Shown here piece after piece: positions 2,158-59,682 of a stretch of DNA of 59,682 bases. The DNA is from a virus. The translations under genes were made by a program, and so were the position numbers. The notes under the pieces were generated by a model. The model worked only from the letters and a program-made list of their open reading frames with translations. It did not search any database and was not told the DNA's origin. The first letter of the stretch is position 1, and every line of letters begins with the position of its first letter. The stretch lies in the IMG/VR virus record IMGVR_UViG_3300035111_000017, positions 1 to 59,682 of that record, one strand, 5' to 3'.

Positions 2158-2763
2158 TCAAGGATGGCGACTATCGCTTAGGTAGGTTATGAATTTTATA
2201 TCTTCCTTGCTAAGAGAAAACCATTCTCCGTTCAGTCTCTTGTCTTTAAATTTAATGTGTAAAGTTCTTTCCGTGAGGTGAGGATCGTCGCTCTTCAACA
2301 CTGCTACCACTTTTATAGCAACAGGCATCATCGCTGATATGGCGGATATTCTTTCTTGGGGATACTTGGCTTTTCCTATCTTAAAAAATCTATCTTCAAA
2401 CGATACTATATAAACGTACCCCATTCTGCGCCCTGCCACAGTCGGCCTATTTGCGGACGATGGATTCTCTTCTTTGCTAAAGTAGGAATCTGGACTGACG
2501 TGCCCATTGAGGTAATCTATATATGCAAAATGGGCTTCCTCTGGTGTATAGAAATGCCCCAGGTACTGATATCTGTCTCCTATCCATATTCGGGACATCC
2601 ATTTACCGTCCCCAGAGCTTAGCGCCCCTAGTAGACCGGATTTACTGTTGCTCCTTGCGGAAGTCCGAGGAGTATTTCTTTTCTTCGTCCCACGCGATGG
2701 ATGCGTTAATGCTCGCTGATACATCGCTTTGACTATTTCATCCGGTAGTCCAACGTTGGACAT
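2158..2763 (-). CDS. Putative homing-type endonuclease: AP2-like domain fused to T5orf172/GIY-YIG domain
   Basis: A 201-residue protein. Residues about 55-85 (GKWMSRIWIGDRYQYLGHF...EEAHFAY) resemble the AP2-like DNA-binding domain of homing endonucleases. Residues about 120-195 (YVYIVSFEDRFFKIGKA, later HIKFKDKRLNGEWFSL) match the T5orf172 (MUG113) branch of GIY-YIG nucleases. I chose ATG 2763, two bases after the stop of the small upstream ORF, because the longer in-frame reading runs back through the portal gene. Codons 2-6 (SNVGL) of this protein are made by a palindrome copy at the start codon. It is inserted between head genes, typical of a freestanding selfish endonuclease. Confidence 0.72.
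   Translation of the reverse strand: MSNVGLPDEIVKAMYQRALTHPSRGTKKRNTPRTSARSNSKSGLLGALSSGDGKWMSRIWIGDRYQYLGHFYTPEEAHFAYIDYLNGHVSPDSYFSKEENPSSANRPTVAGRRMGYVYIVSFEDRFFKIGKAKYPQERISAISAMMPVAIKVVAVLKSDDPHLTERTLHIKFKDKRLNGEWFSLSKEDIKFITYLSDSRHP
2748..2761. repeat. 14-bp palindrome copy 1 (GTCCAACGTTGGAC)
   Basis: Perfectly symmetric copy of GTCYAACGTTRGAC. It overlaps the second codon onward of the AP2-T5orf172 endonuclease gene and encodes SNVG. Confidence 0.95.
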
Positions 2764-2764
2764 G

Positions 2765-2935
2765 TCAACTTTTCCCACTATTACGTTTGCTGTTCTTTCT
2801 CTTTGCTGGTGATGGTTTTCTAATACCCAAGAATTTATTATGATCCACTTTTTGCTTTGTCTTTCTGCGACGAAACTCATCATCAACAATTTTCTTTTCT
2901 TTGGGGTCGGTAATATCGTACATATGCTGAACCAT
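2765..2935 (-). CDS. Small basic protein of unknown function, 56 aa
   Basis: ATG 2935 to TGA 2765, in a different frame from its neighbours. It starts MVQHMYDITDPKEKK and ends in a Lys/Arg/Ser tail. It begins 4 bases after the portal stop and ends 2 bases before the endonuclease start. The compact packing suggests that it is a real gene of the head operon. A similar basic character is seen in the micro-genes at 1782 and 1995. Confidence 0.55.
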   Translation of the reverse strand: MVQHMYDITDPKEKKIVDDEFRRRKTKQKVDHNKFLGIRKPSPAKRKNSKRNSGKS

Positions 2936-2938
2936 AGA

Positions 2939-5038
2939 CTATGACTCCTTGATCCCTGATCTTCCATCTCCCTTGGTATATTGAGATGGAGATTTTTGGG
3001 CAGTTGTCGCCCTTCCGCCTGTACCCTTAGGACCGCCCTTCGGCCCAAGGTTAGGAGTGTTGCTCGATTCGCCTTCCATTTCTTTCTGTATCTCTATCAT
3101 CTGCTTCTTTTCCCATACCCATTGCTCAAAATCGTTCGTCACGCCTTCCGGTGGAGATCCGAGATTAAGCCCCAAGCGAAGGACTTCATTCATCTTACGG
3201 AAGCTGATAGGCGCACCCTTCTGCCATGCGTTCATAATCATCAGCTTGTGCGTCGTCTGAACGATCTCGTGCAAGGTTCCGGGCTGCATCGTCCACTTGA
3301 CGTGATCCGCCATCCATCTTGCCCTTTGCATATCAGAATAGATTGATGGCTTGTCTCTGTACTCCCCCGGTAGGTGAGATGGAATAAGGTTTCCCGGCTG
3401 GTAGTCAAAATTAACCGGAACTATCCTGTCCGGCCCCATGATCTGCAAAAGCAACGGAGTAGTCCAATACTGGAAAACGTAATACTTAAACATGTCGGCC
3501 AGTTCCCGCATCGCCCGTTCCATGTCCCTTGAAATTCCCTTGACTATCGGCCCCGCCATCTCCATGGCTTTTTCCATGGAGTCCGAAGATCCTCCAAGTT
3601 TCATCTTCGAGAGCGCGGCAATGTCCCTCACTCCCATCTGGTAATCCATCTCTCCGGATAGGTAGGTACGGAAATCAGGGACAAAAGAATCGACTACGTT
3701 AAAAGCCTTGTCAAACAGGGTGCTCATTGCTCCCTGCGATCCTACCTCTTGACCGTTGTAACCAATCCTCTGCCCCTGCACGTCGGCCCTTACCGTCTTG
3801 GCCTTGTCCGGACCAATAGCTCTGGAGTTATAGAGCAAAGTCGGATTAAATCGGTTGTCAATCGTCTGATCTGTAATGCGGTCAATTTTGTTGATGACCT
3901 CATGAATAGGCGCGGCGTCGTGAACCATGGAAAATTCCGCAAACGGCCACGGGTCGGCGCAAATCTTAACCAGGGGTACTTTCCCATGCCAGTCCCACTG
4001 CGGTCCGTCATAGACAATTTCCTTGTCCGTTCCAACCAGAAGCCTTCTGCCGGGGAAGATGCGGCACTGTTTAGGAGTAGCTGGTTTATAAGTATGCTCT
4101 CCGCGTTCGTCGTATCCCGCAGGAATCATTTCTCCCACACTGGGAACGTCATAGCTCCACGGCATCTTGTGGTCTACTTCCCGTTCAACTCCTTCGGCTA
4201 TTTTTTCCTTCCGCTTCTCGTATCCCATTTTCATCGTCTTGCCTGACTTGTTGATGGACAGGTCTAAAACGAACTGATAGTAAAGCCTTACGGTCGGATT
4301 TTTTGCCGTGCTCTTTTCCGGCTCTGAGGAGAACACGTCATGGATTACGTCCTGCGCCTTTTGCTTGATTCTCTCTACCCACCCACGCGGGGTTTCCCGG
4401 TCGGGCTTCAATTCCTTCTGAAAGTCCGGCCAGAGGGCATGAGCCAAAAACATCGGCAAGTCTTTGATGATCGTGACGGTGTAGGCTTCCTGAAATCTTC
4501 CGTTGTCAGGGACTCCGGTCATTACCACGTCAAACCATGACATCGGAATCAGGTCTGTGATCGCTTCCCCATGGCCTCCGGGTACTTCTCTCTGACAAAT
4601 TTCCAGCCACCCGCAGGGGGTAATCGAGGCCCACTTCAGGCATTCTTTTAACTGAAGATCGACAAACGTATCGTAGAACCAGAATTCTCCTACACCGTTC
4701 ATTGTTTCAGCAGTATCGAAAGAATCTCTGCTGTTTGAGTGATACGCCGGGTTCCATCTGATCTCAGAAAGGGAATTAACCATCTCGCGGATGTTGCGCT
4801 TGAGGCGGTTGGTCTGCGCCTTGGAGTATTTCTGCTTTCTCTGTTTTTCCGCCAGTTCATCGGTAGGCTTGCCGGAAAGGATGCGGATGGATTCTTCTAG
4901 CTGCTCGTAACCGGGGGAAGATTTCTGGTACTCGTAACCGTCGTTGATCTGTTGCTTGAAAAATTCATGTATTTCTTTCTTGGACGCAACGCCGAATTTT
5001 GGTATCTGCCAACTTCTCCGTATTGTCTCGTCGGCCAT
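2939..5038 (-). CDS. Portal protein
   Basis: A 699-residue protein that forms the dodecameric DNA entry/exit ring at one capsid vertex. Evidence is length, position two genes after the terminase and before the scaffold/capsid, and typical portal features: a long central region with the tyrosine/asparagine-rich TDQTIDNRFNPTLLYNS stretch, and a helical crown-like region (SMEKAMEMAGPIVKGISRDM...RAMRELADMFKYY) at about residues 480-525. The C-terminus is low complexity (glycine, lysine, serine). Starts at ATG 5038, one base after the stop of the upstream gene (5039). Confidence 0.85.
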   Translation of the reverse strand: MADETIRRSWQIPKFGVASKKEIHEFFKQQINDGYEYQKSSPGYEQLEESIRILSGKPTDELAEKQRKQKYSKAQTNRLKRNIREMVNSLSEIRWNPAYHSNSRDSFDTAETMNGVGEFWFYDTFVDLQLKECLKWASITPCGWLEICQREVPGGHGEAITDLIPMSWFDVVMTGVPDNGRFQEAYTVTIIKDLPMFLAHALWPDFQKELKPDRETPRGWVERIKQKAQDVIHDVFSSEPEKSTAKNPTVRLYYQFVLDLSINKSGKTMKMGYEKRKEKIAEGVEREVDHKMPWSYDVPSVGEMIPAGYDERGEHTYKPATPKQCRIFPGRRLLVGTDKEIVYDGPQWDWHGKVPLVKICADPWPFAEFSMVHDAAPIHEVINKIDRITDQTIDNRFNPTLLYNSRAIGPDKAKTVRADVQGQRIGYNGQEVGSQGAMSTLFDKAFNVVDSFVPDFRTYLSGEMDYQMGVRDIAALSKMKLGGSSDSMEKAMEMAGPIVKGISRDMERAMRELADMFKYYVFQYWTTPLLLQIMGPDRIVPVNFDYQPGNLIPSHLPGEYRDKPSIYSDMQRARWMADHVKWTMQPGTLHEIVQTTHKLMIMNAWQKGAPISFRKMNEVLRLGLNLGSPPEGVTNDFEQWVWEKKQMIEIQKEMEGESSNTPNLGPKGGPKGTGGRATTAQKSPSQYTKGDGRSGIKES

Positions 5039-5566
5039 TTACGTTCCTAACCAATGCAAGGTAGATTCAGCTTTGACTTCTTCCCGGTTTCTGGCCTCTT
5101 TGTCCAAGACCTCAAGCATGTACCCTACCATGTCGCGCTCGTAGTTTGACTTGGGATTAGACAGAACTCGCAATAGATGTTCCCTTGGGTTTCCCTGCGC
5201 TTCGTCAAGGTACTCGGTAACTTCATGGTCGCCCTCGAACTGCCTGCGGATATCGGAGGTAATTTCCCGCTGCAAGGCTTTGGCTTCGGTAAGGTTTTTG
5301 ACTTCAAATCTCTCGCGGCCTTCGGGAACCATGGACGGGTCAGGCGGTATACAGATTTTGTTTTCTTCGTCCCGATAGTAAACCGTGCGCTGATAGTACC
5401 CGCCTTGAACTACATCCGTTGACTCGATTTCACTCTTCAGCTTGTCCAACGTTAGACTTTTACGCAGGGCCACGGTAACACGATGGTTCTTGGGGAACCA
5501 GCGTTTCCTCCCGCCGCCGATTTCCGCCCAGCAACTTCCGTCTTCGCTCCAATCAACTTGGGCCAT
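5039..5566 (-). CDS. Unknown protein of the packaging operon, 175 aa
   Basis: An acidic/basic mixed soluble protein (MAQVDWSEDGSCWAEIGGGR...). No family recognised. It abuts the portal gene and follows two small genes after the terminase, so it may belong to head or packaging. A palindrome copy (5444-5457) lies inside it and encodes SLTLD at about residues 37-41. Confidence 0.7.
   Translation of the reverse strand: MAQVDWSEDGSCWAEIGGGRKRWFPKNHRVTVALRKSLTLDKLKSEIESTDVVQGGYYQRTVYYRDEENKICIPPDPSMVPEGRERFEVKNLTEAKALQREITSDIRRQFEGDHEVTEYLDEAQGNPREHLLRVLSNPKSNYERDMVGYMLEVLDKEARNREEVKAESTLHWLGT
5444..5457. repeat. 14-bp palindrome copy 2 (GTCCAACGTTAGAC)
   Basis: Exact to consensus; inside the 175-aa gene 5039-5566, read as LTLD. 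Confidence 0.95.
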
Positions 5567-5572
5567 ATCGAG

Positions 5573-5953
5573 CTATCCGCCTGACTCTAGTTTCAGTCCT
5601 ACGCTCTTGGCGAACGATTCATCGTGCATTTCTACCGCAGTTACCGGCTGACCCAGAAGACAGACCTTGAACCAATCTACGAATCTCGAACCTGAAGTGT
5701 CGCTGATAGCCATTCGTATAGGCTGTAAAGGCTGATTGAAGGTTGACAGTTCAAGGAATATATCCGCTCCTTCCGTGACTGCTTTGCGCTGTTCATCCGT
5801 CAGCGTCCAGCGGCTAATAACCGCCCCGTGTGGCCCGTTCGCTCTCAATGTGCGGAGAGGAATATACTCTGGCTGATTGGCCGCATATACGGTTTCCTGA
5901 TTTTCTAGGCCGTCCACTACTGGGCCATTTCTCGGACTGAGATAGTCAAACAT
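5573..5953 (-). CDS. Unknown protein of the packaging operon, 126 aa
   Basis: Starts MFDYLSPRNGPVVDG with AGGAGCGTAAAA upstream. The sequence has a beta-rich look (AVISRWTLTDEQRK, RFVDWFKVCLLGQP). No family recognised. It sits between terminase and portal genes, six bases from the next gene, so it may be a head-completion or packaging accessory; this is only context. Confidence 0.68.
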   Translation of the reverse strand: MFDYLSPRNGPVVDGLENQETVYAANQPEYIPLRTLRANGPHGAVISRWTLTDEQRKAVTEGADIFLELSTFNQPLQPIRMAISDTSGSRFVDWFKVCLLGQPVTAVEMHDESFAKSVGLKLESGG

Positions 5954-5966
5954 TTTTACGCTCCTT

Positions 5967-8099
5967 CTAATAAACGTAACTTAAGGGGTCGCCTTCCGAT
6001 TCGTCTCCCGCATTCGGAAACTTGCTATGGTCTTCCATTTGAAATCTTCTGGCTAGGAGTGTAGCACCTGAATCCTTTTCTGTCTTGTCTTCTGTTTTTT
6101 CCTCTTTCTTTTTGGGCTTCAGGTTTCCCTTGATACGAGCAATGATGGCCTCATGCGCGTGACTCACCGTGTATGCGATTCCAGCGGCACAATAAATATC
6201 GTTGTTCTCTCCCGAGGCATGGTCGTATTTCATCTTGCCCGATTCTGACTCTTCGCCTTCCGTATTTTCCAGCTCGTCTATGAACTCCTGAAAACTTGCC
6301 TCCAGCCATCCCGTCTTTACCGCGTGTTCAAGATTCTCCATCATGTACTGGCGGCTCCATCCCGTCGTCACCCATCCCCGTCTCTGCGGTTTCCATCCCG
6401 GAGGTCTGCGGATATCAAACCTGTCCATGTAGTACAGATTCACATATCCCACGGCAGCTAACTGGTCGGAAATAAAGTCCCCTACGCTGATCTGTACTTC
6501 CGGGGCAATCTTCGCCTCCCGCTCCGGCATGAACTGCCCGTAATAAGCACCAAGGCAATTAGCGAAACCAGGAGTCTCTGGGGATAACATGTTAGCGGTG
6601 CAAAGCAGGGCTACAGGTTTGTCTGGTTCGTCTCCCTTGCCCACCTTATTGACAAAATACACTGTCCGGTTCTGCCCGATACCCGAGCCAACGTCAATCC
6701 CTATGACGTAGGTGTATCCCGGTTTTGGGTGTTCGCAAATTTGCAGGTAGAAGTCCAGGTTCTTTTCCTTCGGCCTTTCCCTCAACGGAATAAGTTTCCA
6801 GTTCCATACCCGGTCATCCATCGACATCCACTGAATATCGATTCTTGGCAGTGAGTGCGACTGGTAATCCGTCAGGTGAAATCTATGGTCTATCCCGTCA
6901 CCGGCGAAAGCGTAGAACTGGATCTTGTCGGCCTTGCTCTTGGCAATTTCTTCTAGTTCCGCCTGCGAGAAAACAGACCAGCGTTTCGACTGGAAACAAC
7001 TACGCTCGTCACTGGCGAACTCTGCCAGGAATTTCTTATAGGAACTGTCTTTTCTCTTGGCAATGTTGTATCTGTGCTCCCAGCACCACATCTGCTCTAA
7101 GGGCATTTTCCAGTTCGCGCCCATGTGCTTACGGAGTAACGGAGTAGTCGCAACGTAAAGATTGGCGTCTGCGGCCTGCTTGATTGTTTCTTTTAGCGGC
7201 TTCCAGTTTTCCGGTATGGGATGGTTTCTCAGCCAGTCTAACGTTGGATATTTGTCATGACCTACATACCACGGAAGGAATAGGCAGGTGAAATCGTTCC
7301 TGCCGTCTTTCTCTCCCTCGCGCTCTTTCAGCCAGCGGTTATGCCACCAATCGCCCTTGCGCCGCGCCGTTCCTTCCAGTACCACAAAGGTTCTCTTGTT
7401 TTCGTGCATGGCATTCAAGAGAGACGCTTCTATGGTTTCTTCCGGGTCTACCAAGTAGGGGCATTCCGACATGTGCGCGGCGACCGGGGTATCGCCACGG
7501 GGATCATGCTGCAAGAGAATGTCGGAATTTATTTCCCCGAACGCTGGCCCCTGCTTTACGTTATTACGAGTCAACTTAGGCTGCATCCACAGCGGCATCA
7601 TCTCCAGCCCCAGCCAGATCATGCCGCACATTTTTTCCGTCTTATCGTCCTGCGCCGAAGATACTACACAGTGCGAACCTTTGATAAATACGGCAATCCA
7701 GAGGATGATCGCCTCTACCAGAGTAGACATTCCTAACTGGCGGGCCTTCAGGTTGAGGATTTTTATCGGCAACCTTCTCAGGTCTAGGTCTGCCAGGATG
7801 TCAAGGAATATCCTCTGCGCGGCCAATATCTCCGGCCTGCGGATTTTATTTGATGCATCCTTGATGAAAAAATATCGGTAAAACCAGTACACGAAAGAGA
7901 TGGAACAAATATACTTTTCGTTCTCTATGAATCTGGCTTCTTCCTGGGTGTACTTGAAATCCTGCGGCTTGTCTTCAGGGTTGCGGGCGTAGTATAGATT
8001 TTTCCCGTCAGAACGCTCAAGAGACTTGAAGTGATCGTACCATCGGATACAGGTCTCTACCGGGTACTCAGTTATCTTCCGCTTCGTCTTCGCTTCCAA
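5967..8099 (-). CDS. terL: Terminase large subunit (packaging ATPase-nuclease)
   Basis: The motor that pumps phage DNA into the procapsid and cuts it. The ATPase domain has the terminase-type Walker A variant KARQLGMST at about residue 120 and a Walker B/coupling region ending FVVLEGTAR. The nuclease domain has the first catalytic aspartate in VIGIDVGSG and a late acidic site in HASGENNDIYCA. An ATG at 8183 would overlap the upstream gene by 116 bases, so I prefer TTG 8099 (preceded by GGAAAAG), with GTG 8138 as an alternative. A one-mismatch palindrome copy (7236-7249) lies inside and is read as PTLD. Confidence 0.88.
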   Translation of the reverse strand: MEAKTKRKITEYPVETCIRWYDHFKSLERSDGKNLYYARNPEDKPQDFKYTQEEARFIENEKYICSISFVYWFYRYFFIKDASNKIRRPEILAAQRIFLDILADLDLRRLPIKILNLKARQLGMSTLVEAIILWIAVFIKGSHCVVSSAQDDKTEKMCGMIWLGLEMMPLWMQPKLTRNNVKQGPAFGEINSDILLQHDPRGDTPVAAHMSECPYLVDPEETIEASLLNAMHENKRTFVVLEGTARRKGDWWHNRWLKEREGEKDGRNDFTCLFLPWYVGHDKYPTLDWLRNHPIPENWKPLKETIKQAADANLYVATTPLLRKHMGANWKMPLEQMWCWEHRYNIAKRKDSSYKKFLAEFASDERSCFQSKRWSVFSQAELEEIAKSKADKIQFYAFAGDGIDHRFHLTDYQSHSLPRIDIQWMSMDDRVWNWKLIPLRERPKEKNLDFYLQICEHPKPGYTYVIGIDVGSGIGQNRTVYFVNKVGKGDEPDKPVALLCTANMLSPETPGFANCLGAYYGQFMPEREAKIAPEVQISVGDFISDQLAAVGYVNLYYMDRFDIRRPPGWKPQRRGWVTTGWSRQYMMENLEHAVKTGWLEASFQEFIDELENTEGEESESGKMKYDHASGENNDIYCAAGIAYTVSHAHEAIIARIKGNLKPKKKEEKTEDKTEKDSGATLLARRFQMEDHSKFPNAGDESEGDPLSYVY
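7236..7249. repeat. 14-bp palindrome copy 3 (one mismatch)
   Basis: GTCTAACGTTGGAT, last base differs from consensus. It lies inside the terminase ATPase domain and is read as YPTLDW. Confidence 0.85.
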
Positions 8100-8703
8100 T
8101 AGCGATTTCTTTTCCGAGATTGTCTGAGGATGAAACACGCGGCAATAACGGAGGCTCCAACTCCGACAACACTTCATCCACAACCCCTGCTACCTCAACA
8201 TGGCTGGGAATGTTGATCCTAACATTGTTCTGCTGTTGCTGGAACCTGTTTCCAATCATGATATTTCTCTGGTTCACCGGAACCGGGGCCACGCCTGTAG
8301 TTTGCAGTAGCAGTCTTGCATGTTGGAACCCGTCCTTGCCTTTGGCGTGTTTGGCCGTCTTGGACATGACCGAAGGGGATTCGGTAGCGGCAATCATCTG
8401 CGACTCTATGGCCTTGGCCTTGGAATAAAATTCACAGATTACCCCGGCCATCTTGAACGGGTCTTTACACTTTGCCGCCGCTATCAGATGGTCAATGGTG
8501 ATTACTTTCTGAAGTGATGGATTCAAGCGGTCGTAGTAAGCGCAAATCAGTTGCGCGTTTCCATCTTCGCTTGACCTGAGGCAGGTAATGATTTCCTGTA
8601 GTCCAACGTTAGACATGAGAACGGATATTTTTGTCACCGGCTCATAGGTGTCAGGGAGTTCAAGAGCACGGCAAGCGTAGACGATCTGAGAGAGGCGGGT
8701 CAT
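8068..8703 (-). CDS. Probable terminase small subunit
   Basis: A 211-residue protein directly upstream of the large terminase and overlapping its start. The first 130 residues are helical with several short hydrophobic helices; the C-terminal 80 residues are polar and acidic. Position, size and order fit the DNA-recognition subunit of the packaging motor, but no sequence signature is visible, so this is by context. A palindrome copy (8601-8614) encodes SNVG just after an internal methionine at about residue 30. Starts ATG 8703, overlapping the last base of the ASCH gene. Confidence 0.6.
   Translation of the reverse strand: MTRLSQIVYACRALELPDTYEPVTKISVLMSNVGLQEIITCLRSSEDGNAQLICAYYDRLNPSLQKVITIDHLIAAAKCKDPFKMAGVICEFYSKAKAIESQMIAATESPSVMSKTAKHAKGKDGFQHARLLLQTTGVAPVPVNQRNIMIGNRFQQQQNNVRINIPSHVEVAGVVDEVLSELEPPLLPRVSSSDNLGKEIAIGSEDEAEDN
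8601..8614. repeat. 14-bp palindrome copy 4 (GTCCAACGTTAGAC)
   Basis: Exact to consensus; inside the probable small terminase gene, read as MSNVGLQ. Confidence 0.95.
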
Positions 8704-9167
8704 TACGCGGCTTTATTCCAGTTCCATAGCATCCGATTTCCCTTAGCCGGAATAGGCGGTTCAAAAACTTCGACCATCTCAAGATGCCACGCATATCTTC
8801 CGTCCTCGTAATTTCCAAATACACGTTCACGGTTGCATATTTCTTCTCTCAGCATGGCGTCTATTTCTTGCACGTCGGTTAGGCGTACTATACATAGGAC
8901 TTTCCCGTAAGGTAGACCTCTAAAAATATCATCAACATGCTTTCCGCCGCGGTCGTCCCTGTCCCGGCGAACACTAAATACCTCCGCTAACTCATCACGG
9001 AAAGGGTCGGTACTAGAAGAAGCCCCAAGCCATGCGGGAGGAATTTTAGCCGCTGAATGGATGGCAATCTCTCCCCGATATTTTGTACTCCAGCAGCGTG
9101 TTTCAATGCGCTTGACTTCCATCGCTACAAGAGAAGCCCACGGCTGCCAAAGAGTCAACGCTTTCAT
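8703..9167 (-). CDS. ASCH domain protein
   Basis: A 154-residue protein that begins MKALTLWQPWASLVAM and continues RIETRCWSTKYRGEIAIHSA, the characteristic ASCH (PUA-like) opening. ASCH proteins bind RNA or modified nucleotides; phage members are common but mostly without an assigned role. The core fold spans most of the protein, with IVRLTDVQEID and YAWHLEMVEVF as later strands. It overlaps the next gene by one base and the previous by four, so it belongs to the packaging operon. Confidence 0.85.
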   Translation of the reverse strand: MKALTLWQPWASLVAMEVKRIETRCWSTKYRGEIAIHSAAKIPPAWLGASSSTDPFRDELAEVFSVRRDRDDRGGKHVDDIFRGLPYGKVLCIVRLTDVQEIDAMLREEICNRERVFGNYEDGRYAWHLEMVEVFEPPIPAKGNRMLWNWNKAA

Positions 9168-9364
9168 TCTTCTATCCCTGCGCTTTCATCCACTTCTTCC
9201 GGCAAAGTGACTTCGCTTACTTCCGTGACCAAAAGCGGCTCATGGGACTTCTCGAAGTCCGCAGGCTCCAGTCTGGCCATTATCCCTTCCATGGCCGTAG
9301 CGATGCGTTCTAGGGCCGTTTCCGTGCGTTTGGAGCCTATTCTAATGACCCTTACCAGTGGCAC
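9164..9364 (-). CDS. Small acidic protein of unknown function, 66 aa
   Basis: A 66-residue protein with an N-terminal helix (ALERIATAMEGIMARL) and an acidic C-terminal half rich in Glu and Val. The stop overlaps the ATG of the ASCH gene (ATGA). No family recognised. Confidence 0.6.
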   Translation of the reverse strand: MPLVRVIRIGSKRTETALERIATAMEGIMARLEPADFEKSHEPLLVTEVSEVTLPEEVDESAGIEE

Positions 9365-9366
9365 GG

Positions 9367-9879
9367 CTAACCTCGCCTTGGGTTAGACACTAACTGGCCT
9401 CCGCACTTAAAACATACAGCGCGAACTTTTCTTCCAGTTACCCCGTCCGTGAGTGGAGCGAATTGTTCTTGTCCGCATTTCAGGCAGGAACAGAAACGAT
9501 CATCGTCTGCAAGCGGCTCGATTGTACCCGTTCCTTGGGCCTTGCTTATAATCTCTGAGGCCTTACCATCAACGCGGCGGGCGCGGATATCTAGCCCGCC
9601 TTTATCTACGTGTTCTTTCATCCCCTTCGAGAGATTGCGGTATTCTCTACCTGTAGGTTTGTACCATTCCCATGATGGCGGCGGGATATCGGCAGGTCTT
9701 GGGCCTTGGGGATAAAAGCTAGAAGTTGCCATTCCATCGCAAACGTTTTCTCCGTTAGCTCGACAACGGAGCATGAATGGGGTTACTCCTTCGTCAATGT
9801 CAATGGTGACCGTGTAACCCTTGCACTTCGGGCACGTATATACATTCTCTCTCCCGACTAAGGTTTTAGTTTCCACCAC
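9367..9879 (-). CDS. Zinc-ribbon protein, 170 aa
   Basis: Two metal-binding units: an N-terminal one (YTCPKCKG at residues 14-21, with further Cys in LRCRANGENVCDG) and a C-terminal ribbon (SCLKCGQEQF with VCFKCGG). The middle is a proline-rich/charged linker. No catalytic motif is visible. It probably binds nucleic acid or a protein partner. Its start overlaps the end of the upstream gene by 14 bases. It is one of at least six zinc-ribbon proteins in this genome. Confidence 0.7.
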   Translation of the reverse strand: MVETKTLVGRENVYTCPKCKGYTVTIDIDEGVTPFMLRCRANGENVCDGMATSSFYPQGPRPADIPPPSWEWYKPTGREYRNLSKGMKEHVDKGGLDIRARRVDGKASEIISKAQGTGTIEPLADDDRFCSCLKCGQEQFAPLTDGVTGRKVRAVCFKCGGQLVSNPRRG

Positions 9880-10273
9880 GCGCCTTCTTTCCTTTGGCCT
9901 TTACCAGCTTCGCTTCCGGGGATATATCTTCTGGCGGCAAGAATGCAAGAAAATCTTCCATCACTCCGGCGTCGATCTCGGTTTCTTTTTCCTCTAGTTC
10001 TTTAAGCCACATCGCAATGAATTCCTTGCGGGACATCGGCGGAGCTTCTCCCGGCTCAAGCTGCTGCTCTCTTGCCTTGCTGCCAATAACGTTGATCGCC
10101 GATTCCGGGCCACGGGCCTGAAGGATGACGTTTACTTCCCACTGCGCCGAATATCCGTAGAAGGAAAGATTACCCGATGAGAAGTCAGAATTGCGGAGCA
10201 TGGACTGTTCGATCTCCGCCATGAGTTCCTGCTTGATTTCGTCGCTGGTGATCTTGGGCTTTCCGTAGGCCAT
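9866..10273 (-). CDS. Unknown helical protein, 135 aa
   Basis: Begins MAYGKPKITSDEIKQELMAE; helical and charged with a basic C-terminal tail (AKGKKARGGN). No family recognised. It directly follows the stop of the 81-aa gene and overlaps the zinc-ribbon gene, within the operon headed by the HTH regulator. Confidence 0.68.
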   Translation of the reverse strand: MAYGKPKITSDEIKQELMAEIEQSMLRNSDFSSGNLSFYGYSAQWEVNVILQARGPESAINVIGSKAREQQLEPGEAPPMSRKEFIAMWLKELEEKETEIDAGVMEDFLAFLPPEDISPEAKLVKAKGKKARGGN

Positions 10274-10519
10274 TTACATCCTCGCCAGATGCAGAATGCG
10301 GAGAATTTTCTGCACAGTTTCATCGTTCAGGTCATTGACAGCCTGTTCGATCTGCTGACGTTCTCTCTCGTTGGCCCATCGCCTTTCGGTAAGAGACTTA
10401 CGCATGCTCTCAATGATGGGGTTTACTTCTGGAGCGAACGCGCCAGTTCCCATGGATTGCGAATTCTGTTTACATTCATCCTGCGGCCTGATTCCGCGAA
10501 TTGGTTCCTTCTCGTTCAT
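10274..10519 (-). CDS. Unknown helical protein, 81 aa
   Basis: Begins MNEKEPIRGIRPQDECK; the C-terminal half is a long charged helix (NERERQQIEQAVNDLNDETV). It overlaps the end of the HTH gene by four bases, so the two are likely co-translated. No family recognised. Confidence 0.65.
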   Translation of the reverse strand: MNEKEPIRGIRPQDECKQNSQSMGTGAFAPEVNPIIESMRKSLTERRWANERERQQIEQAVNDLNDETVQKILRILHLARM

Positions 10520-11037
10520 TTTTGTTTTCCTTTGTGTCTAACGTTGGACTTTCGGTTATCGAACTCGTTCTGAACTTGCATGAACTTTTCCAGATGTCTC
10601 CGCTGCGGCGAGTGCGCCCCCGATTCCATCCGGCTCACCGTTACCTTGCTCACTCCCAAAATCTCAGCAAATGCGTCCTGCGTCTTTTTCATCCGCTTGC
10701 GAAGCCTCCGGCAATGGAGCGGAAAATCCATTCGCAAAAGATCGAGAGCGGGGTTCGGTAGAATTTTCAGCTTCCTCTTCGCCGGGGCTTTGTACCACCA
10801 CACATGCCGAAACTTCGGGTTCCCGCAACGCCTCGGCAGTTCCCCGGTCGATGCCGTCCAACTTACACGGCATATCCGGCACATGCAACGCAGCTCCCCG
10901 TTCACTACTCGCACCCATGGGGACAGGGCAGCGACCATGGATTTTAGCGACCCTGAACCTGCGGCATTCTTTTTGTCCCGCTTCGTCCCAGTCCGCCGGT
11001 TCCCACTCGTCGGGGATATACATGTCGCACCTGCCAT
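10516..11037 (-). CDS. Zinc-ribbon plus Xre-type HTH transcription regulator
   Basis: A 173-residue protein. Residues about 50-82 carry a CMCRICRVSW...RRCGNP zinc-ribbon-like segment; residues about 103-160 are an Xre/Cro-type helix-turn-helix (RLRKRMKKTQDAFAEILGVS, VSRMESGAHSP). It is the best candidate for a phage repressor or activator. The ATG at 11037 lies 7 bases after a -10 box, so the mRNA is probably leaderless; the first 33 residues look atypical and ATG 10938 is an alternative. It is insulated: a terminator lies just upstream and it has its own promoter. A palindrome copy (10536-10549) encodes KSNVR near its C-terminus. Confidence 0.75.
   Translation of the reverse strand: MAGATCISPTSGNRRTGTKRDKKNAAGSGSLKSMVAALSPWVRVVNGELRCMCRICRVSWTASTGELPRRCGNPKFRHVWWYKAPAKRKLKILPNPALDLLRMDFPLHCRRLRKRMKKTQDAFAEILGVSKVTVSRMESGAHSPQRRHLEKFMQVQNEFDNRKSNVRHKGKQK
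10536..10549. repeat. 14-bp palindrome copy 5 (GTCTAACGTTGGAC)
   Basis: Exact to consensus; inside the C-terminal tail of the HTH regulator gene, read as SNVR. Confidence 0.95.
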
Positions 11038-11044
11038 AGATATT

Positions 11045-11072
11045 ATGGTATCAAACTACAAGTAATTGTCAA
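11045..11072 (-). promoter_or_regulatory. Promoter of the HTH regulator unit (leaderless type)
   Basis: Minus strand: TTGACA (67-72 of 110xx), 16-base spacer ending in TTTGA, then TACCAT (11045-11050). The ATG of the HTH gene lies 7 bases further, at the expected transcription start. One of nine promoters of the same design in this genome. Confidence 0.75.
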
Positions 11073-11074
11073 TA

Positions 11075-11114
11075 TAAAATAAAAAGGGGCGGATGAGTAA
11101 AGATTTTCCGCCCC
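11075..11114 (-). terminator. Intrinsic terminator upstream of the HTH unit
   Basis: GGGGCGGA (11086-11093) pairs with TCCGCCCC (11107-11114); on the minus strand the stem is followed by TTTTTATTTTA. It ends the operon that comes from 12444 just before the HTH promoter. Confidence 0.82.
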
Positions 11115-11143
11115 GGCTTCCGGTTGGGATGAATATAGCATAA

Positions 11144-11157
11144 GTCTAACGTTGGAC
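11144..11157. repeat. 14-bp palindrome copy 6 (GTCTAACGTTGGAC)
   Basis: Exact to consensus; supplies the last codons and TAG stop of the 40-aa gene 11146-11268 (VQR-stop). Confidence 0.95.
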
Positions 11158-11268
11158 TTTCTTCCACACGGATTTATATTCCGCCAGCCGTCCAAGACGA
11201 ATCAGTATTCTTCTTTGCGTTGGCCAATGGAGAGTAAACCAGTTCACGGAGATAAACCACGGTCTCAT
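11146..11268 (-). CDS. Small basic protein, 40 aa
   Basis: ATG 11268 overlaps the TGA of the upstream gene (ATGA), a coupling signal. The product starts MRPWFISVNWFTLHW and is rich in Arg and Trp; it ends KKVQR. Its TAG stop is formed by a palindrome copy. It is the last gene before the terminator at 11075-11114. No family recognised. Confidence 0.55.
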   Translation of the reverse strand: MRPWFISVNWFTLHWPTQRRILIRLGRLAEYKSVWKKVQR

Positions 11269-11753
11269 ACTCGCTCATCCAAAAAAACAATTCCGTCCTG
11301 CACCCCGAGATACACGCAATCCAGCTTCATGTTTTCCCTGAGCCACGACCGTAACTGCTCCGCGTGTTGTTCCGATTGCCCCGCCAGCCCGGAACGAAAA
11401 GGTGTGAACTGTTGCGGAAGATCGGTCTTGATGAGACCGCCATCCCGTTTCCTGATGTTCATTTTCATGTCTTTCCTCTTTGACTCCCTTATGGCCTCAT
11501 GTTTTTTCCACAGGTCTCCGGTTGAATGGCCTAACTTCCACGTTCGTAAAAGCTCTGGCGATATTGTGTCGTCAAACTCGTAACGGTCAAAAATCAAAGT
11601 ATGCGGGGCCGGTTTCCCGCGTGGGTCTTTCTTGTTTGCGCACCCGAAAGGGCATTTCTTCCGGGTCGGGGGATACATGTCCGACCCCTGGTACCTTCCC
11701 GATGCTATTTCCCGGTTACAGCAGGACAGACGAAAAATGGCGATATTACTCAC
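11265..11753 (-). CDS. Unknown protein with Cys pair, 162 aa
   Basis: GTG 11753 overlaps the TGA of the upstream zinc-ribbon gene (GTGA). Near the N-terminus it has RLSCCNREIASGRYQGSDMY and KKCPFGCANK, which could hold a metal. The rest is charged and helical. No family recognised. It belongs to the regulated operon 12444-11146. Confidence 0.65.
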   Translation of the reverse strand: MSNIAIFRLSCCNREIASGRYQGSDMYPPTRKKCPFGCANKKDPRGKPAPHTLIFDRYEFDDTISPELLRTWKLGHSTGDLWKKHEAIRESKRKDMKMNIRKRDGGLIKTDLPQQFTPFRSGLAGQSEQHAEQLRSWLRENMKLDCVYLGVQDGIVFLDERV

Positions 11754-12121
11754 TGCCGGTACTCGTCACTGTCGTCAATCCGGGTCTCGCCGGACTCCGT
11801 TTTCCGCTGCCTTGGCTTGTCCGTCTCTTTTGGCTTGATTCCGTCCACTGGAGGGACGGAATAGGGCTCTTTCTTCTCCTGAAGTTTTTCCACTCCCATA
11901 CCTTCTCCTGATGTTAGGCGTTTACTGTCTGCCCGTTTTTGGGAGTCTAGCATTTCCAGCTCTGAATTTCTCTGTGGAAATTTCTGGCCACCATTCCACT
12001 TGGAACTCCGGCACTTTCTTGAAGGACACTGATTTGGCGGGAATTTTTTCCCTCGCTCCGGCAACCACTCATGCCCGCACACGTCACACTCCAGAACATC
12101 GGTACGGGTTATGATCGCCAT
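11750..12121 (-). CDS. Zinc-ribbon protein, 123 aa
   Basis: The N-terminal 45 residues form a ribbon: CDVCGHEWLPE...NQCPSRKCRSSKWNG. The same spacing and the CRS.KWN ending recur in the protein at 12646-13119, so the two are paralogues. The C-terminal 75 residues are low-complexity and charged. It is likely nucleic-acid binding. Its ATG touches the stop of the upstream gene at 12121. Confidence 0.72.
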   Translation of the reverse strand: MAIITRTDVLECDVCGHEWLPERGKKFPPNQCPSRKCRSSKWNGGQKFPQRNSELEMLDSQKRADSKRLTSGEGMGVEKLQEKKEPYSVPPVDGIKPKETDKPRQRKTESGETRIDDSDEYRQ

Positions 12122-12444
12122 TAATCCTTTTTCTCTTTCTCGATCTTTTCAATAGTTACTTTTATGGTTCCATACCGTTGTAGGAGTTCAAAGAAGTCTC
12201 CCGTAAACCGGAGTCCAGCCATCGTTAGAGCGCCTCGGAAAAATTCCCCGTGCTCTTTAAACGTGAACGTCTTTTCAAAGTTTATGGCCTTGTGGTTTGT
12301 GCCCCAAATGGCATCTTGTTTCTCTTCGGAAAATCCTCTCAAGATAGCCCTCTGTAATTCCCCACCGTTCGTGTTGCAGTCATTTTCCGATTTCCATGCT
12401 GGGACTATAGGCTCTGCCACCATCCTTAACTTCCAATCACTCAT
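12121..12444 (-). CDS. Unknown protein, first gene of a repressor-controlled operon
   Basis: A 107-residue soluble protein (MSDWKLRMVAEPIVPAWK...) ending in a Lys/Glu helix. A good ribosome site (AAAGGAC) precedes it. It is the first gene after the operator-covered promoter at 12469-12536. No family recognised; the segment HGEFFRGALTMAGLRFTGDF suggests a compact alpha/beta fold. Confidence 0.65.
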   Translation of the reverse strand: MSDWKLRMVAEPIVPAWKSENDCNTNGGELQRAILRGFSEEKQDAIWGTNHKAINFEKTFTFKEHGEFFRGALTMAGLRFTGDFFELLQRYGTIKVTIEKIEKEKKD

Positions 12445-12468
12445 ATTCTAAAGTCCTTTTTTATCTAT

Positions 12469-12536
12469 AAGTACATCGTACACTTAGTACATGGTACCGT
12501 CAAGTACATGGTGCAAAGAAAAGTACAGTGTACAAA
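12469..12536 (-). promoter_or_regulatory. Promoter with four GTACANNGTAC operator-like repeats
   Basis: Four related sites begin at 12471 (GTACATCGTAC), 12487 (GTACATGGTAC), 12504 (GTACATGGTGC) and 12523 (GTACAGTGTAC), spaced 16, 17 and 19 bases. A minus-strand promoter lies among them: -35 TTGACG at 12498-12503, 17-base spacer, -10 TACGAT at 12475-12480. Site 1 covers the -10, site 2 fills the spacer, site 3 touches the -35. This is the layout of a strongly repressed promoter. The repressor is not identified; the HTH protein at 10516-11037 and the RHH protein at 25250-25744 are candidates. Confidence 0.75.
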
Positions 12537-12645
12537 ATAGTATTGGTAAAAAATGGGGAATGAAATTTAAAGGAAAGTATTATCCACCGCCCCTCGCGCC
12601 TCCCCCATCCGGACAACGTAAGTGTGAGACAGGACGCGGAACCCG

Positions 12646-13119
12646 TTAGCCGTCAACACGCGCCATCACTTGCGACACCCCTCCTACCCCTACCCCCTTA
12701 CATCCTGCCCGTACCAGTGCGTCTCCTAGCTGCCCCCTCTGCCTCTCTGTGATCTTAGGTCTTCTAGGGTTCGACCGCATTCCCGTTGCCTTGCCTCTAA
12801 GACATTCCGCGCTGTCTCCCTTGCCCGGTATGCGTCCCTTGCGTGGCTGTGTATCGCGCCAGGTGGCCGTAAGGCACAGGAGGCATGAGCACAGAGGATG
12901 ATGGTTCCCCTCTGAGTCTAACGTTGGACTCATCCGCTGCTTTACCTTCACCATCCCCTTGTCCGGCCTGCCTGAAACACTCTTCCTGGGCCTGTTCCAC
13001 AAGGCGGAACGGCACTTACTAGAGGCACATCTTGACGGGGTTCGATGGCCATCCTTAAGCCATACCCAGCCGCATATCTGGCACTCCCAGCACGGTCTTA
13101 CACACTCGGGCATAGCCAC
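12646..13119 (-). CDS. Zinc-ribbon protein with basic tail, 157 aa
   Basis: Residues 10-43 are a ribbon (CWECQICGWVWLKDG...SRCASSKCRSALWN), paralogous to the one at 11750-12121. A second Cys cluster (LCSCLLC) follows at about 76-82. The C-terminus is very rich in Gly, Arg and Val. A palindrome copy (12916-12929) is read as SPTLD in the middle. Base composition at the 3' end (C-rich runs in the plus strand) differs from its neighbours. No own promoter is evident. Confidence 0.6.
   Translation of the reverse strand: MAMPECVRPCWECQICGWVWLKDGHRTPSRCASSKCRSALWNRPRKSVSGRPDKGMVKVKQRMSPTLDSEGNHHPLCSCLLCLTATWRDTQPRKGRIPGKGDSAECLRGKATGMRSNPRRPKITERQRGQLGDALVRAGCKGVGVGGVSQVMARVDG
12916..12929. repeat. 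14-bp palindrome copy 7 (GTCTAACGTTGGAC)
   Basis: Exact to consensus; inside the zinc-ribbon gene 12646-13119, read as SPTLD. Confidence 0.95.
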
Positions 13120-20630: not shown

Positions 20631-21452
20631 CTAAACCGCCTTTTCCAGATCGGACTCCGCTTCCCTCTGCTTCCGCAAGGCTTCCGCCGCCCGCTGGTTT
20701 GTCATGCCCTGGAAACGTTCGTCTTGGCAAAGCTGCTGCAAGTACTCAAGGCACACGGTTTCAAGGGCTTCCCCTTCCGTCTTGCAGTCGTTCAGTATTT
20801 TCGCGGCCTGGATCGCTTCGTCGCAAATGTCCTTCGCCGGAGAATCCAGCCTGATTGTTGACTGAGAATCGACATGAGACTCCGGCGAATGGTTCTGTAT
20901 CGCCGTCCGCATTTCCGACTCGCTCCCCTTCGCCGCCTTGCGGATAGGAGAGTCCACTTTCTCGTAGTGCATCTTCGGCACCTTGGTAAGCAGGTCAATG
21001 TTCCGGCGCGGCATCTCCGCCAGCTCTTCCTTGGGAATGAACGGCAACAACTTGTCTGCGGCCTTCAGCGCGGCATAGCCGGATGCGCGGGAATAAGGCG
21101 CGGCGTCTTTCAGCCATGAATCGAAGCTGGAAAACCCTTTGCCGTTGTGCTTCAGTTCTTTCCACAGCGCGAGGGTCTTCATCTCGCGGAGAATCACCAT
21201 CATCTCCACAAAGTTTTTCCTGGTGGCCGTCTCAAGCGAACGGAATTTCTCGTCGTGCGCCACGGCCAGTTCCTTGCGCTCAGTGGCTGTCATCTCAGGC
21301 ACAGGCGGAATCACGGACAATTTGCCCTTTTTCCCCTTGCCTTCGGGCTTCTCTTTCTTGCCCTTGGTTTTCTTCTTGTTTTTGTCATTTTCTAGGGCCT
21401 CTGATACCTGCGCCCCAAGACCCTTTTTCTTGCCTTTTACTTTCAGTGCCAT
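20631..21452 (-). CDS. Helical DNA-binding candidate, 273 aa
   Basis: Residues 1-45 are extremely basic (many KKK). A middle domain at about 70-170 is helical with a possible helix-turn-helix (FSSFDSWLKDAAPYSRASGY). The C-terminal third is acidic and helical. It resembles partition- or replication-type DNA-binding proteins in general look, but no family is certain. It has its own promoter (21502-21530) and an unusual leader holding a palindrome copy, so it may itself act in the palindrome network. GGGAG precedes the ATG. Confidence 0.62.
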   Translation of the reverse strand: MALKVKGKKKGLGAQVSEALENDKNKKKTKGKKEKPEGKGKKGKLSVIPPVPEMTATERKELAVAHDEKFRSLETATRKNFVEMMVILREMKTLALWKELKHNGKGFSSFDSWLKDAAPYSRASGYAALKAADKLLPFIPKEELAEMPRRNIDLLTKVPKMHYEKVDSPIRKAAKGSESEMRTAIQNHSPESHVDSQSTIRLDSPAKDICDEAIQAAKILNDCKTEGEALETVCLEYLQQLCQDERFQGMTNQRAAEALRKQREAESDLEKAV

Positions 21453-23925: not shown

Positions 23926-23939
23926 GTCTAACGTTGGAC
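23926..23939. repeat. 14-bp palindrome copy 13 (GTCTAACGTTGGAC)
   Basis: Exact to consensus; forms the last codons and TAG stop of the initiator gene (VQR-stop) and sits 7 bases upstream of the -35 box of promoter 23891-23918. Confidence 0.95.
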
Positions 23940-24761
23940 TTGGGATTGACGCATGGATATCCTCTCCGCGTCCTTCCTCCGCTCACGCTCAAGAGCGTCC
24001 TCCGGCGGCGGGGCGTGGCCGTTGCCGTTATTGCTTACCGCGTAGAACGTTAGCCAGTTTTTCTGGATAGCCCTTCGCATGACCTCGCGCACGTTTTCAC
24101 CGGAAATCCGTAACTCATCCAAGCTATCAAGCGCGTATCTTTGGGCTAGCGCGGTAGCTGGCTTCCGCATCTGCTTCCGCATTTCCAGCCAGCCATTCCA
24201 CTCCGCGATCGGAAGCCAGTCGGGGAGAACAGGCTTTTCTTTTGCTTGTTTTTCTTTTTGTGTGGGGCTTTTAGGGTCTTTAAGGTCTACAGGGGTTAAT
24301 TCAAAGAAGTAAGGAGTACCTGTATTTTCTGTATTGATAGTATTTATAGTCTTTAAAGTGTTCCCTATAGGAACAACAGATGGAACAGAGGATGGAACAA
24401 TGACTGGAACAGCACTGTTCCCTATAGGAACAGACGAAAGATAGGTTTTAGGTATTTCTAGCAGAGTGTAAATAGAGGGTTTGCGACTGGTGACATTTCC
24501 TTTTTCTTCACAGCGGACTAATTTATGGGTAATCAACTTTCCTATGGCTCTCATAGCCGTCTGCGGCGAAGTCCCCAACATTTCCGCTATCTGCCGTAAT
24601 GTGATAACGCATTCCCCAGTGTGATTATTCGCCACCACACTGAGGGCCATATACACCGCGATACCGTCAATGCCGATATTTGGGCCGTACACATAGAGTA
24701 GTTCATTGTCAGCCCAGAAGTGACCGGGGCGGCGACTGTCGCGGACTTTAACTTCATTCAC
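23928..24761 (-). CDS. Replication initiator-like protein with winged helix, carries internal origin
   Basis: A 277-residue protein. Residues 1-100 form a winged-helix domain (YMALSVVANNHTGECVITLR then AEMLGTSPQTAMRAIGKL) like those of phage O-type initiators. A low-complexity middle with VP-repeats (about residues 110-136) is encoded by 12-bp iterons. The C-terminal domain (EWNGWLEMRKQMRKPATALA, YALDSLDELR) is typical of proteins that contact DnaB or its loader. By analogy with lambda O it would bind the iterons in its own gene and load DnaB. It overlaps the HNH gene by four bases. Confidence 0.78.
   Translation of the reverse strand: MNEVKVRDSRRPGHFWADNELLYVYGPNIGIDGIAVYMALSVVANNHTGECVITLRQIAEMLGTSPQTAMRAIGKLITHKLVRCEEKGNVTSRKPSIYTLLEIPKTYLSSVPIGNSAVPVIVPSSVPSVVPIGNTLKTINTINTENTGTPYFFELTPVDLKDPKSPTQKEKQAKEKPVLPDWLPIAEWNGWLEMRKQMRKPATALAQRYALDSLDELRISGENVREVMRRAIQKNWLTFYAVSNNGNGHAPPPEDALERERRKDAERISMRQSQVQR
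24360..24432. other. Candidate replication origin: 12-bp iterons flanked by two palindromes
   Basis: GTTCCCTATAGGAACA occurs at 24360-24375 and 24417-24432. Between and including the first copy, GGAACA recurs with an exact 12-base period (24370, 24382, 24394, 24406). The stretch 24230-24360 next to it is AT-rich. Iterons inside an initiator gene next to an AT-rich region are the arrangement of the lambda origin. Confidence 0.72.
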
Positions 24762-25249: not shown

Positions 25250-25744
25250 CTACTCACCGTCAAGCATTTTTTCAATACTTTTTATCACCACATCCCGCAG
25301 GGTCATCTTATTCTTTCTGGCGTACCCTACGGCCCTCAGCCGGAGTTCCGTGGGAAAGTCGTTGATCCTGAGTCCTTCATTCCGGTAACGCGGCTGCTTG
25401 TTGATCTTGGTCAGCACCTTACCCCGTCTAACGTTAGACAAGATGTCTTTTACGATCTTGGAAGTGTTAAAGGCCGGAACGATCTGCTTGGCGAGTACGG
25501 CCTCTACCCGTGAGGGAAGAAAATTGAAGGGAGTTTCAGGGCGGTAGTAAGGCTTTGTCGATTCTTCCGGAGGGAATGGGCCATTTATAAAACGATCACG
25601 AAACCATCCGTCGCCTTTACTTGAAGACTCTACGACTATAATCTTCAGTGGCTTACCGCACTCCGGCTTCCTGCAGTTACCAGAAACCGTCATAAACTGG
25701 TTAAGTTGGCACCAAGGGCAACGGATTACTTCGCGGTCGGGCAT
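25250..25744 (-). CDS. Zinc-ribbon plus ribbon-helix-helix-like regulator
   Basis: A 164-residue protein. The N-terminus has CPWCQLNQFMTVSGNCRKPE with a following CGKPL, a four-Cys ribbon. The C-terminal 40 residues (FPTELRLRAVGYARKNKMTL, then DVVIKSIEKML) have the strand-helix-helix pattern of Arc/MetJ-type regulators. It could be the repressor for the operator cluster or the palindrome. A palindrome copy (25426-25439) encodes LSNVRRG. Confidence 0.68.
   Translation of the reverse strand: MPDREVIRCPWCQLNQFMTVSGNCRKPECGKPLKIIVVESSSKGDGWFRDRFINGPFPPEESTKPYYRPETPFNFLPSRVEAVLAKQIVPAFNTSKIVKDILSNVRRGKVLTKINKQPRYRNEGLRINDFPTELRLRAVGYARKNKMTLRDVVIKSIEKMLDGE
25426..25439. repeat. 14-bp palindrome copy 14 (GTCTAACGTTAGAC)
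   Basis: Perfectly symmetric; inside the ribbon-helix-helix gene 25250-25744, read as SNVR. Confidence 0.95.
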
Positions 25745-59087: not shown

Positions 59088-59682
59088 TTAACCTGAGTAA
59101 CCGAACGAGCTGATGTTTGACGAAGGAACAAGGTTATAGAGGATCATCGCCGCCCTGATAACGTCCGCCGCCATGTCGCCGTCAATCGCGTTGATTAACC
59201 CAGAATTCTTGAAGGCGTAAATTCCAGTCTTGGGATAAACGAATCTCCACGAATCCGTGCGCCAGAACCAGAAAGTCTCTCCAACCGTCAAAGTCGTGAC
59301 TCCGCCCGACCGTGAGGGGAAGTTGCTCAGGGTCGTATTGGAATCAACCGAGGTCGGGTTCGTTATCGTCCCCGTGGTGATTCTCGCAATCACCGACTGG
59401 TCTTGAATGAACCGGGCATTCTGGAGTCCCGGCGAGTAGGAGTCGGCCAGGATCGTAGACCCGTAGAACTTGACTCCCTCAAAACCGAGTTTAGCTTCCT
59501 TCACTCCTACGTCCGCCCGCTGCATCGGGAACAGAAGTCCGCAGATTCTTCCATACAGGAAGTCAGAGGCAAACCCCATGTCCGGCTTTCCGCCGATCAT
59601 CTTTCCTTCTCCCTTTCCCTGCTTACAGGAATGGTAAAGCTGGTTGATGACCTGAAGCGTGATAGGCGCGGAAGTTCCATCC
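59088..59682 (-). CDS. Major capsid protein, C-terminal part (gene split by contig ends)
   Basis: This is the remainder of the gene that starts at 729: the unique part is 59088-59555 and 59556-59682 is the duplicated end. The C-terminus ends in SSFGYSG and the stop is followed at once by a copy of the 14-bp palindrome (59074-59087). An apparent internal start at 59600 is only an internal methionine of the full gene. The next gene (58419-59063) probably encodes a decoration or structural protein, so capsid and structural genes are contiguous around the circle. Confidence 0.8.
   Translation of the reverse strand, partial: DGTSAPITLQVINQLYHSCKQGKGEGKMIGGKPDMGFASDFLYGRICGLLFPMQRADVGVKEAKLGFEGVKFYGSTILADSYSPGLQNARFIQDQSVIARITTGTITNPTSVDSNTTLSNFPSRSGGVTTLTVGETFWFWRTDSWRFVYPKTGIYAFKNSGLINAIDGDMAADVIRAAMILYNLVPSSNISSFGYSG
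59556..59682. repeat. Terminal direct repeat, right copy
   Basis: Exact copy of bases 1-127. The capsid gene reads straight through the join in one frame, which confirms that the two ends are adjacent in the real molecule. Confidence 0.93.

Follow-up and report, generated by a model that had tools for sequence, protein, structure and literature searches.

What purpose is served by the four similar short sites that lie over a predicted promoter at 12.5 kb of this viral genome, and which protein would bind them? The preliminary description of the locus saw in them a likely genetic switch, of the lysogeny or early/late kind, under the control of an HTH protein (10516-11037) or an RHH protein (25250-25744). 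The window, that is the whole stretch of 59,682 nucleotides analysed here, carries a 127-bp terminal direct repeat, positions 1-127 being the same as 59556-59682. Since the first 127 bases are repeated at the end of the record and the junction of its two ends is spanned by the major capsid gene, the virus record is a complete genome, circular as assembled, of 59,555 bp with 51% GC. Its terminase shares 46% identity with those of the Acidobacteriota podophages Tunturi 1 and 2, to which the portal, capsid and tail proteins also relate it, 56% with the TerL of a 59.5-kb contig (G001) and 48% with the terminase of a 57-kb contig (G002). A 13-kb contig (L030) matches positions 2455-13017 of the window at 99.5% identity. 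The phage's rightward genes begin only at about 13.2 kb, and an Rfam search of the window returned no match. We are dealing with a soil virus akin to Acidobacteriota phages, whose host we infer from the Tunturi relatives; the first isolates of Acidobacteriota phages were reported in 2025 (PMC11924767). In one of these relatives, Tunturi 1, we observed that ORF101 (L054 29234-29446), annotated as hypothetical, is an Acb2/Tad1 hairpin-domain protein (PF24729, E 1.7e-11). The members of this family are known as anti-CBASS sponges.

By inspecting the locus, we found that each of the four sites, which stand between 12470 and 12533 on the plus strand and share one orientation, is an 11-12 bp imperfect dyad AGTACA-N-NGTAC. 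Site 1, AGTACATCGTAC (12470-12481), covers the predicted -10 hexamer; site 2, AGTACATGGTAC (12486-12497), falls within the -35/-10 spacer; site 3, AGTACATGGTGC (12503-12514), which has one mismatch, abuts the -35 hexamer; and site 4, AGTACAGTGTAC (12522-12533), a perfect odd dyad GTACA-N-TGTAC, is located upstream of the promoter. The left half AGTACA is common to all four and the right half is variable, and the start-to-start spacing of these AGTACANNGTAC sites is 16, 17 and 19 bp. We compared the array with dinucleotide shuffles. First, AGTACANNGTAC with at most one mismatch has six matches in the genome against 1.1 ± 1.1 expected by chance, a number reached in none of 100 shuffles, and exact GTACANNGTAC occurs in the genome in the array only. 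Second, in a motif-free test for 12-mers recurring within 70 bp with at most two mismatches, the array ranks first with four copies (maximum of three in 100 shuffles) and is therefore the strongest short-range repeat array of the genome. At 69% AT, the DNA in which it stands (12435-12584) is surpassed in AT content by one other 150-bp stretch only. The cluster proposed earlier, with four sites spaced by 16-19 bp over TTGACG and TACGAT, is thus confirmed, no shuffle reproducing the array. Its conservation, however, was seen only in the near-identical L030, which shows no change in the array or in the 220 bp that surround it. We did not find it in G001, G002, Tunturi 1, Tunturi 2 or more distant loci, so the expectation that the same cluster would recur in relatives is borne out by this 99.5%-identical contig only.

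Two readings would deny the array any role in gene control. AGTACAN heptamers repeated in tandem are frequent among bacterial genomes and the GTAC units within each array site are 7 bp apart, as expected from a decayed microsatellite of this kind without function. However, the successive GTAC spacings are 7, 9, 7, 10, 7, 12 and 7, that is, regular pairs with GTAC-free linkers between them, and these pairs fall on promoter elements, which makes such an origin of the array very improbable. The array might also be an iteron cluster working as replication origin or partition centromere: four direct repeats with dyad symmetry and adjoining AT-rich DNA are what is seen at the lambda origin, and the phage encodes an O-like initiator (phrog_678). 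Against this, a lambda-type origin, with dyad iterons and an AT-rich stretch, is present at 24279-24432 inside the O-like initiator gene itself (23928-24761), where iterons TGTTCCCTATAGGAACA lie at 24359-24375 and 24416-24432 beside a stretch of 75% AT. In G001, the same O-like gene carries different iterons, ACCGTTCC. With a lambda-type origin in this gene, an origin role of the array is unlikely and none is needed at 12.5 kb; iterons of O-type origins lie in or next to the initiator gene, whereas the array is 11 kb away. A partition centromere, for its part, has a partner ATPase gene, and no ParA/CbiA-type domain was found in the genome. Given these separate iterons and the lack of ParA/CbiA, we rejected both the origin and the centromere, to which we would leave only a very slim chance.

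The array coincides with a predicted sigma-70-like promoter on the minus strand (12475-12503), in which TTGACG (12503-12498) is followed, after 17 nt, by TACGAT (12480-12475), with 9 of 12 matches in a class that is not above chance. Because promoter-like hexamers are no commoner in the 7-kb region than in shuffles (7 against 5.5 ± 2.5), this promoter is a prediction. Its main supports are that it coincides with the array and that the DNA is locally rich in AT, and it falls outside the recognisable promoter class of the phage, TTGACA-N-TTTGATAACWT. Its predicted leader is about 25-30 nt. The first gene below it on the minus strand (12121-12444) encodes a 107-aa protein of no known family with a single Cys; its start codon lies about 30 nt below the -10, with AAGGAC upstream. 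Then come a 123-aa protein with a CxxC...CPSRKC zinc ribbon (11750-12121, minus strand) and a 162-aa protein of no known family with a Cys-containing N-terminus and a poor zinc ribbon (11265-11753, minus strand). An intrinsic terminator in the same orientation (11078-11114; 8-bp GC-rich stem, 13-nt loop, then TTTTTATTTT, -16.3 kcal/mol) confines the controlled unit to these three small genes. The operon of small zinc-ribbon genes described previously is therefore retained as an operon of three small genes, the zinc ribbon being clear only in the second of them (11750-12121). On the other side of the array, the upstream gene (12646-13119, minus strand) is also a zinc-ribbon gene, with a homologue in G001 (48% over 111 aa).

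We consider it fairly probable that the four sites constitute a tandem operator array for a dimeric repressor acting on the leftward promoter of this three-gene unit. Dimers bound at sites 1 to 3, on the -10, in the spacer and beside the -35, would exclude RNA polymerase, and site 4 directly upstream would add cooperativity. The promoter would then drive the three small genes up to the terminator at 11078-11114, and the HTH gene beyond this terminator would be served by a promoter of its own. The sites, their spacing and the boundaries of the unit can be read directly in the DNA; an active promoter, a repressive effect and a dimeric binder are what we infer from them. Taken together, the locus looks like an ordinary, tightly controlled, multi-operator promoter, well supported by its anatomy, and our preferred reading is an arrangement of a known kind.

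Does this proposed tandem operator array belong to a lysogeny or early/late switch? As in lambdoid OR/OL, several dyad sites lie over a -35/-10 pair, and the four sites cover the predicted promoter in the way that tandem operators cover the lytic promoter of a lambda-type switch. Unlike in these systems, however, the array stands over a single non-divergent promoter, with a spacing of 16-19 bp, and the phage has neither an adjacent CI-like gene nor an integrase. Since gene 13119-12646 runs the same way as gene 12444-12121, the array between them is not in a divergent switch region, where repressor and antirepressor promoters would share operators. The operon headed by the array terminates before the HTH gene. 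Moreover, no domain match was found in the complete genome for a tyrosine integrase (Phage_integrase), a Resolvase or ParA/CbiA, that is, for an integrase or a partition system by which a prophage would be maintained. The lack of a visible integrase that had already been pointed out is therefore upheld, for Phage_integrase and Resolvase alike, in a genome closed by its 127-bp repeat. The Tunturi phages, Tunturi 1 and 2 among them, showed lytic cycles, and recombinase/integrase genes are annotated only in Tunturi 3-5 (PMC11924767). Of the switch that had been proposed, a regulated promoter with multiple operators is what stands, and a lysogeny or early/late decision under the HTH or RHH protein is not supported, although either protein may still bind the sites. 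To call the array a lysogeny switch is to say more than the evidence allows, and we saw no sign of a dormant (lysogenic) life cycle.

The proteins named in that proposal have to be weighed as binders in their own right. The HTH protein (10516-11037, minus strand) is XRE/MqsA-like, though its likeness to MqsA is weak, with a Cys-rich N-terminus and HTH_3/HTH_31 at residues 110-154. Its gene was said to have its own promoter and terminator. The former is present on the minus strand (TTGACA-16-TACCAT, 11045-11072) and belongs to the TTGACA-N-TTTGATA class of the phage, its -35 beginning a few bases past the terminator at 11078-11114; as to the latter, this terminator precedes the HTH promoter and ends the three-gene operon instead of following the HTH gene. 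The HTH start codon is only 7 nt below the -10, and the message is probably leaderless. We also observed an inverted repeat CCATA-N5-TATGG (11034-11048) that overlaps the -10 of this promoter and is a possible autoregulatory site of the HTH protein.

In favour of the HTH protein as repressor at the four sites, within a phage decision switch, no other clear XRE regulator was found, and the distance between its gene, which has a promoter of its own, and the array is 1.4 kb. However, G001 keeps an HTH orthologue at the same place (56% identity in the domain) without any GTACANNGTAC site, and the inverted repeat over the -10 of the HTH gene differs in sequence from the array sites. The RHH-like protein (25250-25744) could play the same part: its C-terminus fits the strand-helix-helix pattern and, like the array, it has no detected counterpart in G001. 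This shared absence says little, because 42 of the 80 called genes of the window also lack a G001 match; moreover, the protein is not recognised by Pfam and no strong array-type sites lie near its gene. Searches with both proteins in phage records found nothing, a profile of the HTH protein found no relative in bacterial genomes, and structures predicted without alignment for the HTH and RHH proteins (pLDDT 39 and 42) were too poor to help. We therefore regard control of the array by either of these two proteins as doubtful.

Sites of the array type were also searched for outside the phage. By scanning bacterial genomes with a double-site pattern of the AGTACANNGTAC type, we obtained AGTACAN heptamer microsatellites and, besides these, about twenty loci of another kind. 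At 12 of these non-microsatellite loci a TetR-family gene is near, and the double site lies about 200-280 bp before an MSLYRYV-like recognition-helix motif. The three proteins scanned from double-site loci all contain TetR_N and TetR_C_1, and the best-scoring solved structures for these TetR proteins were SimR and ActR. Such double or triple AGTACANNGTAC sites lie directly upstream of TetR-family genes at L183, L188, L202, L205, L243, L246, L273 and others; the loci come from Streptomyces and other Actinobacteria and from a Vibrio plasmid, and the sites are a recurrent operator, which is probably autoregulatory. Since the same double site precedes TetR-family genes at 12 loci, the motif fits a dimeric TetR-like repressor. 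The core GTAC-N3-GTAC is shared by the array and the operators of TetR_C_1-type genes (SimR/ActR relatives), and both arrange AGTACANNGTAC sites in tandem, two or three upstream of the TetR genes and four, spaced by 16-19 bp, in the phage. Unlike these loci, where the TetR gene is adjacent, the phage has no TetR gene anywhere: TetR_N gave no match in its complete genome at E up to 10, against matches in 14 of 14 control genomes.

The match in motif and tandem arrangement, together with the absence of TetR_N from a complete genome, would suit a promoter that the phage has put in the hands of a TetR-family repressor encoded by the host, or by a plasmid or prophage residing with the phage, the operon being silent until released by a ligand or stress. 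However, in the searched phylum (that of a genome titled Acidobacteria) we found TetR_C_1 in just 2 of 99 genomes, with no GTAC dyad in the examined loci, and the host is itself deduced from the Tunturi relatives. In 396 genomes of this phylum we found no double site other than tandem repeats. A TetR protein profile (A7), used with no positive control, returned no match at E up to 1e-15 when 40 genomes were searched. Such control from outside seems rather unlikely as a full account of the promoter. Regarding the binder alone, the HTH protein is no likelier a candidate than a TetR-like protein encoded outside the phage or a phage protein that escaped recognition. Viral contigs with a double GTACANNGTAC were discarded as a guide to the regulator: many have the look of in-frame 18-bp coding repeats, others belong to unrelated phages, and they have no identified regulator in common with the window.

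The genome holds a second set of sites that is more unusual than the array, and in our view more striking and more deserving of attention. The 14-bp near-palindrome GTCYAACGTTRGAC has 28 copies in the window at up to two mismatches, about one every 2.1 kb (for example at 2748, 5444, 8601, 10536, 11144, 12916, 23926, 34457, 52100 and 59074). There are 30 copies in G001 and none in G002, and Tunturi 1 and 2 carry a related yet distinct set, made up of AGTCCAATATTGGACT with its variants (14 and 15 copies, against 6-7 in shuffles). Among viral contigs, more than one exact GTCTAACGTTGGAC was found in G001 and L030 only. The spacing of the 14-mers is more even than random, with coefficients of variation of 0.50 and 0.52 against 0.97. 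For six of the 28 window copies, G001 has a site no more than 50 bp from the orthologous position, against 1.4 expected (p = 0.0025), and in four of these cases the positions match exactly. In one shared gene the 14-mer stands at a shifted place and in another reading frame, indicating that the DNA rather than the protein is kept. In addition, 12 of the 28 stand no more than 30 bp from the start or end of a gene, where 3.6 would be expected (p = 0.002). The halves of a site are unequal more frequently than by chance (pooled p = 8e-5) and the true motif is therefore slightly asymmetric; in the window, its orientation shows no bias with respect to transcription, asymmetric sites being split about evenly.

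These 14-mers are also found at promoters of the recognisable class of the phage. Promoters of the form TTGACA-(N)-TTTGATAACWT or close to it number nine in the window (11072, 13189, 21530, 23918, 29309, 33237, 34448, 49469 and 52121), and in most of them the start codon follows the -10 by 7-10 nt, an arrangement suggestive of leaderless messages. At four of the nine, a 14-mer is found within -25 to +60 of the start of the -35 (0.36 expected, p = 0.0004), and at three promoters it is centred 14.5-15.5 bp upstream of the -35. One gene (20631-21452, minus strand) encodes a lineage-specific protein of no known family that is present in the window, G001, Tunturi 1 and Tunturi 2 and not in G002, and a 14-mer lies in its leader just below the promoter, both in the window (21476) and in G001. 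By this covariation, the protein is a candidate reader of the 14-mers. The HTH protein was rejected as reader for its poor covariation, with orthologues in G001 (which has the 14-mers), more weakly in G002 (which has none) and not found in Tunturi (which has the related set).

Cluster A mycobacteriophages provide the closest parallel in the comparison, since their stoperators are likewise more than 20 short binding-site-like sequences across the genome, often at gene boundaries, and the 14-mers are, as stoperators should be, many, short, genome-wide and conserved in relatives. They differ in being near-palindromic and without orientation bias in the window, whereas stoperators of the L5 type are 13-mers that lack symmetry and point in the direction of transcription (PMC9283540, PMC6550527). 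As a tentative possibility, which we hold to be less probable than not, this lineage could carry some 28-30 regularly spaced 14-mers genome-wide that the 20631-21452 protein would read to silence, pause or organise the genome, the array being a second, separate layer of control. If this is true, a system that is stoperator-like or organises DNA would exist in phages other than actinobacteriophages.

To our knowledge, very little is known about gene control in Acidobacteriota phages. The dispersed palindromes can be tested in the cultured phages Tunturi 1 and 2. The array offers a defined promoter for testing in this group of phages, and its motif a candidate class of regulator. If the binder is a TetR protein of the host, then a set of phage genes would be wired to a host regulator.
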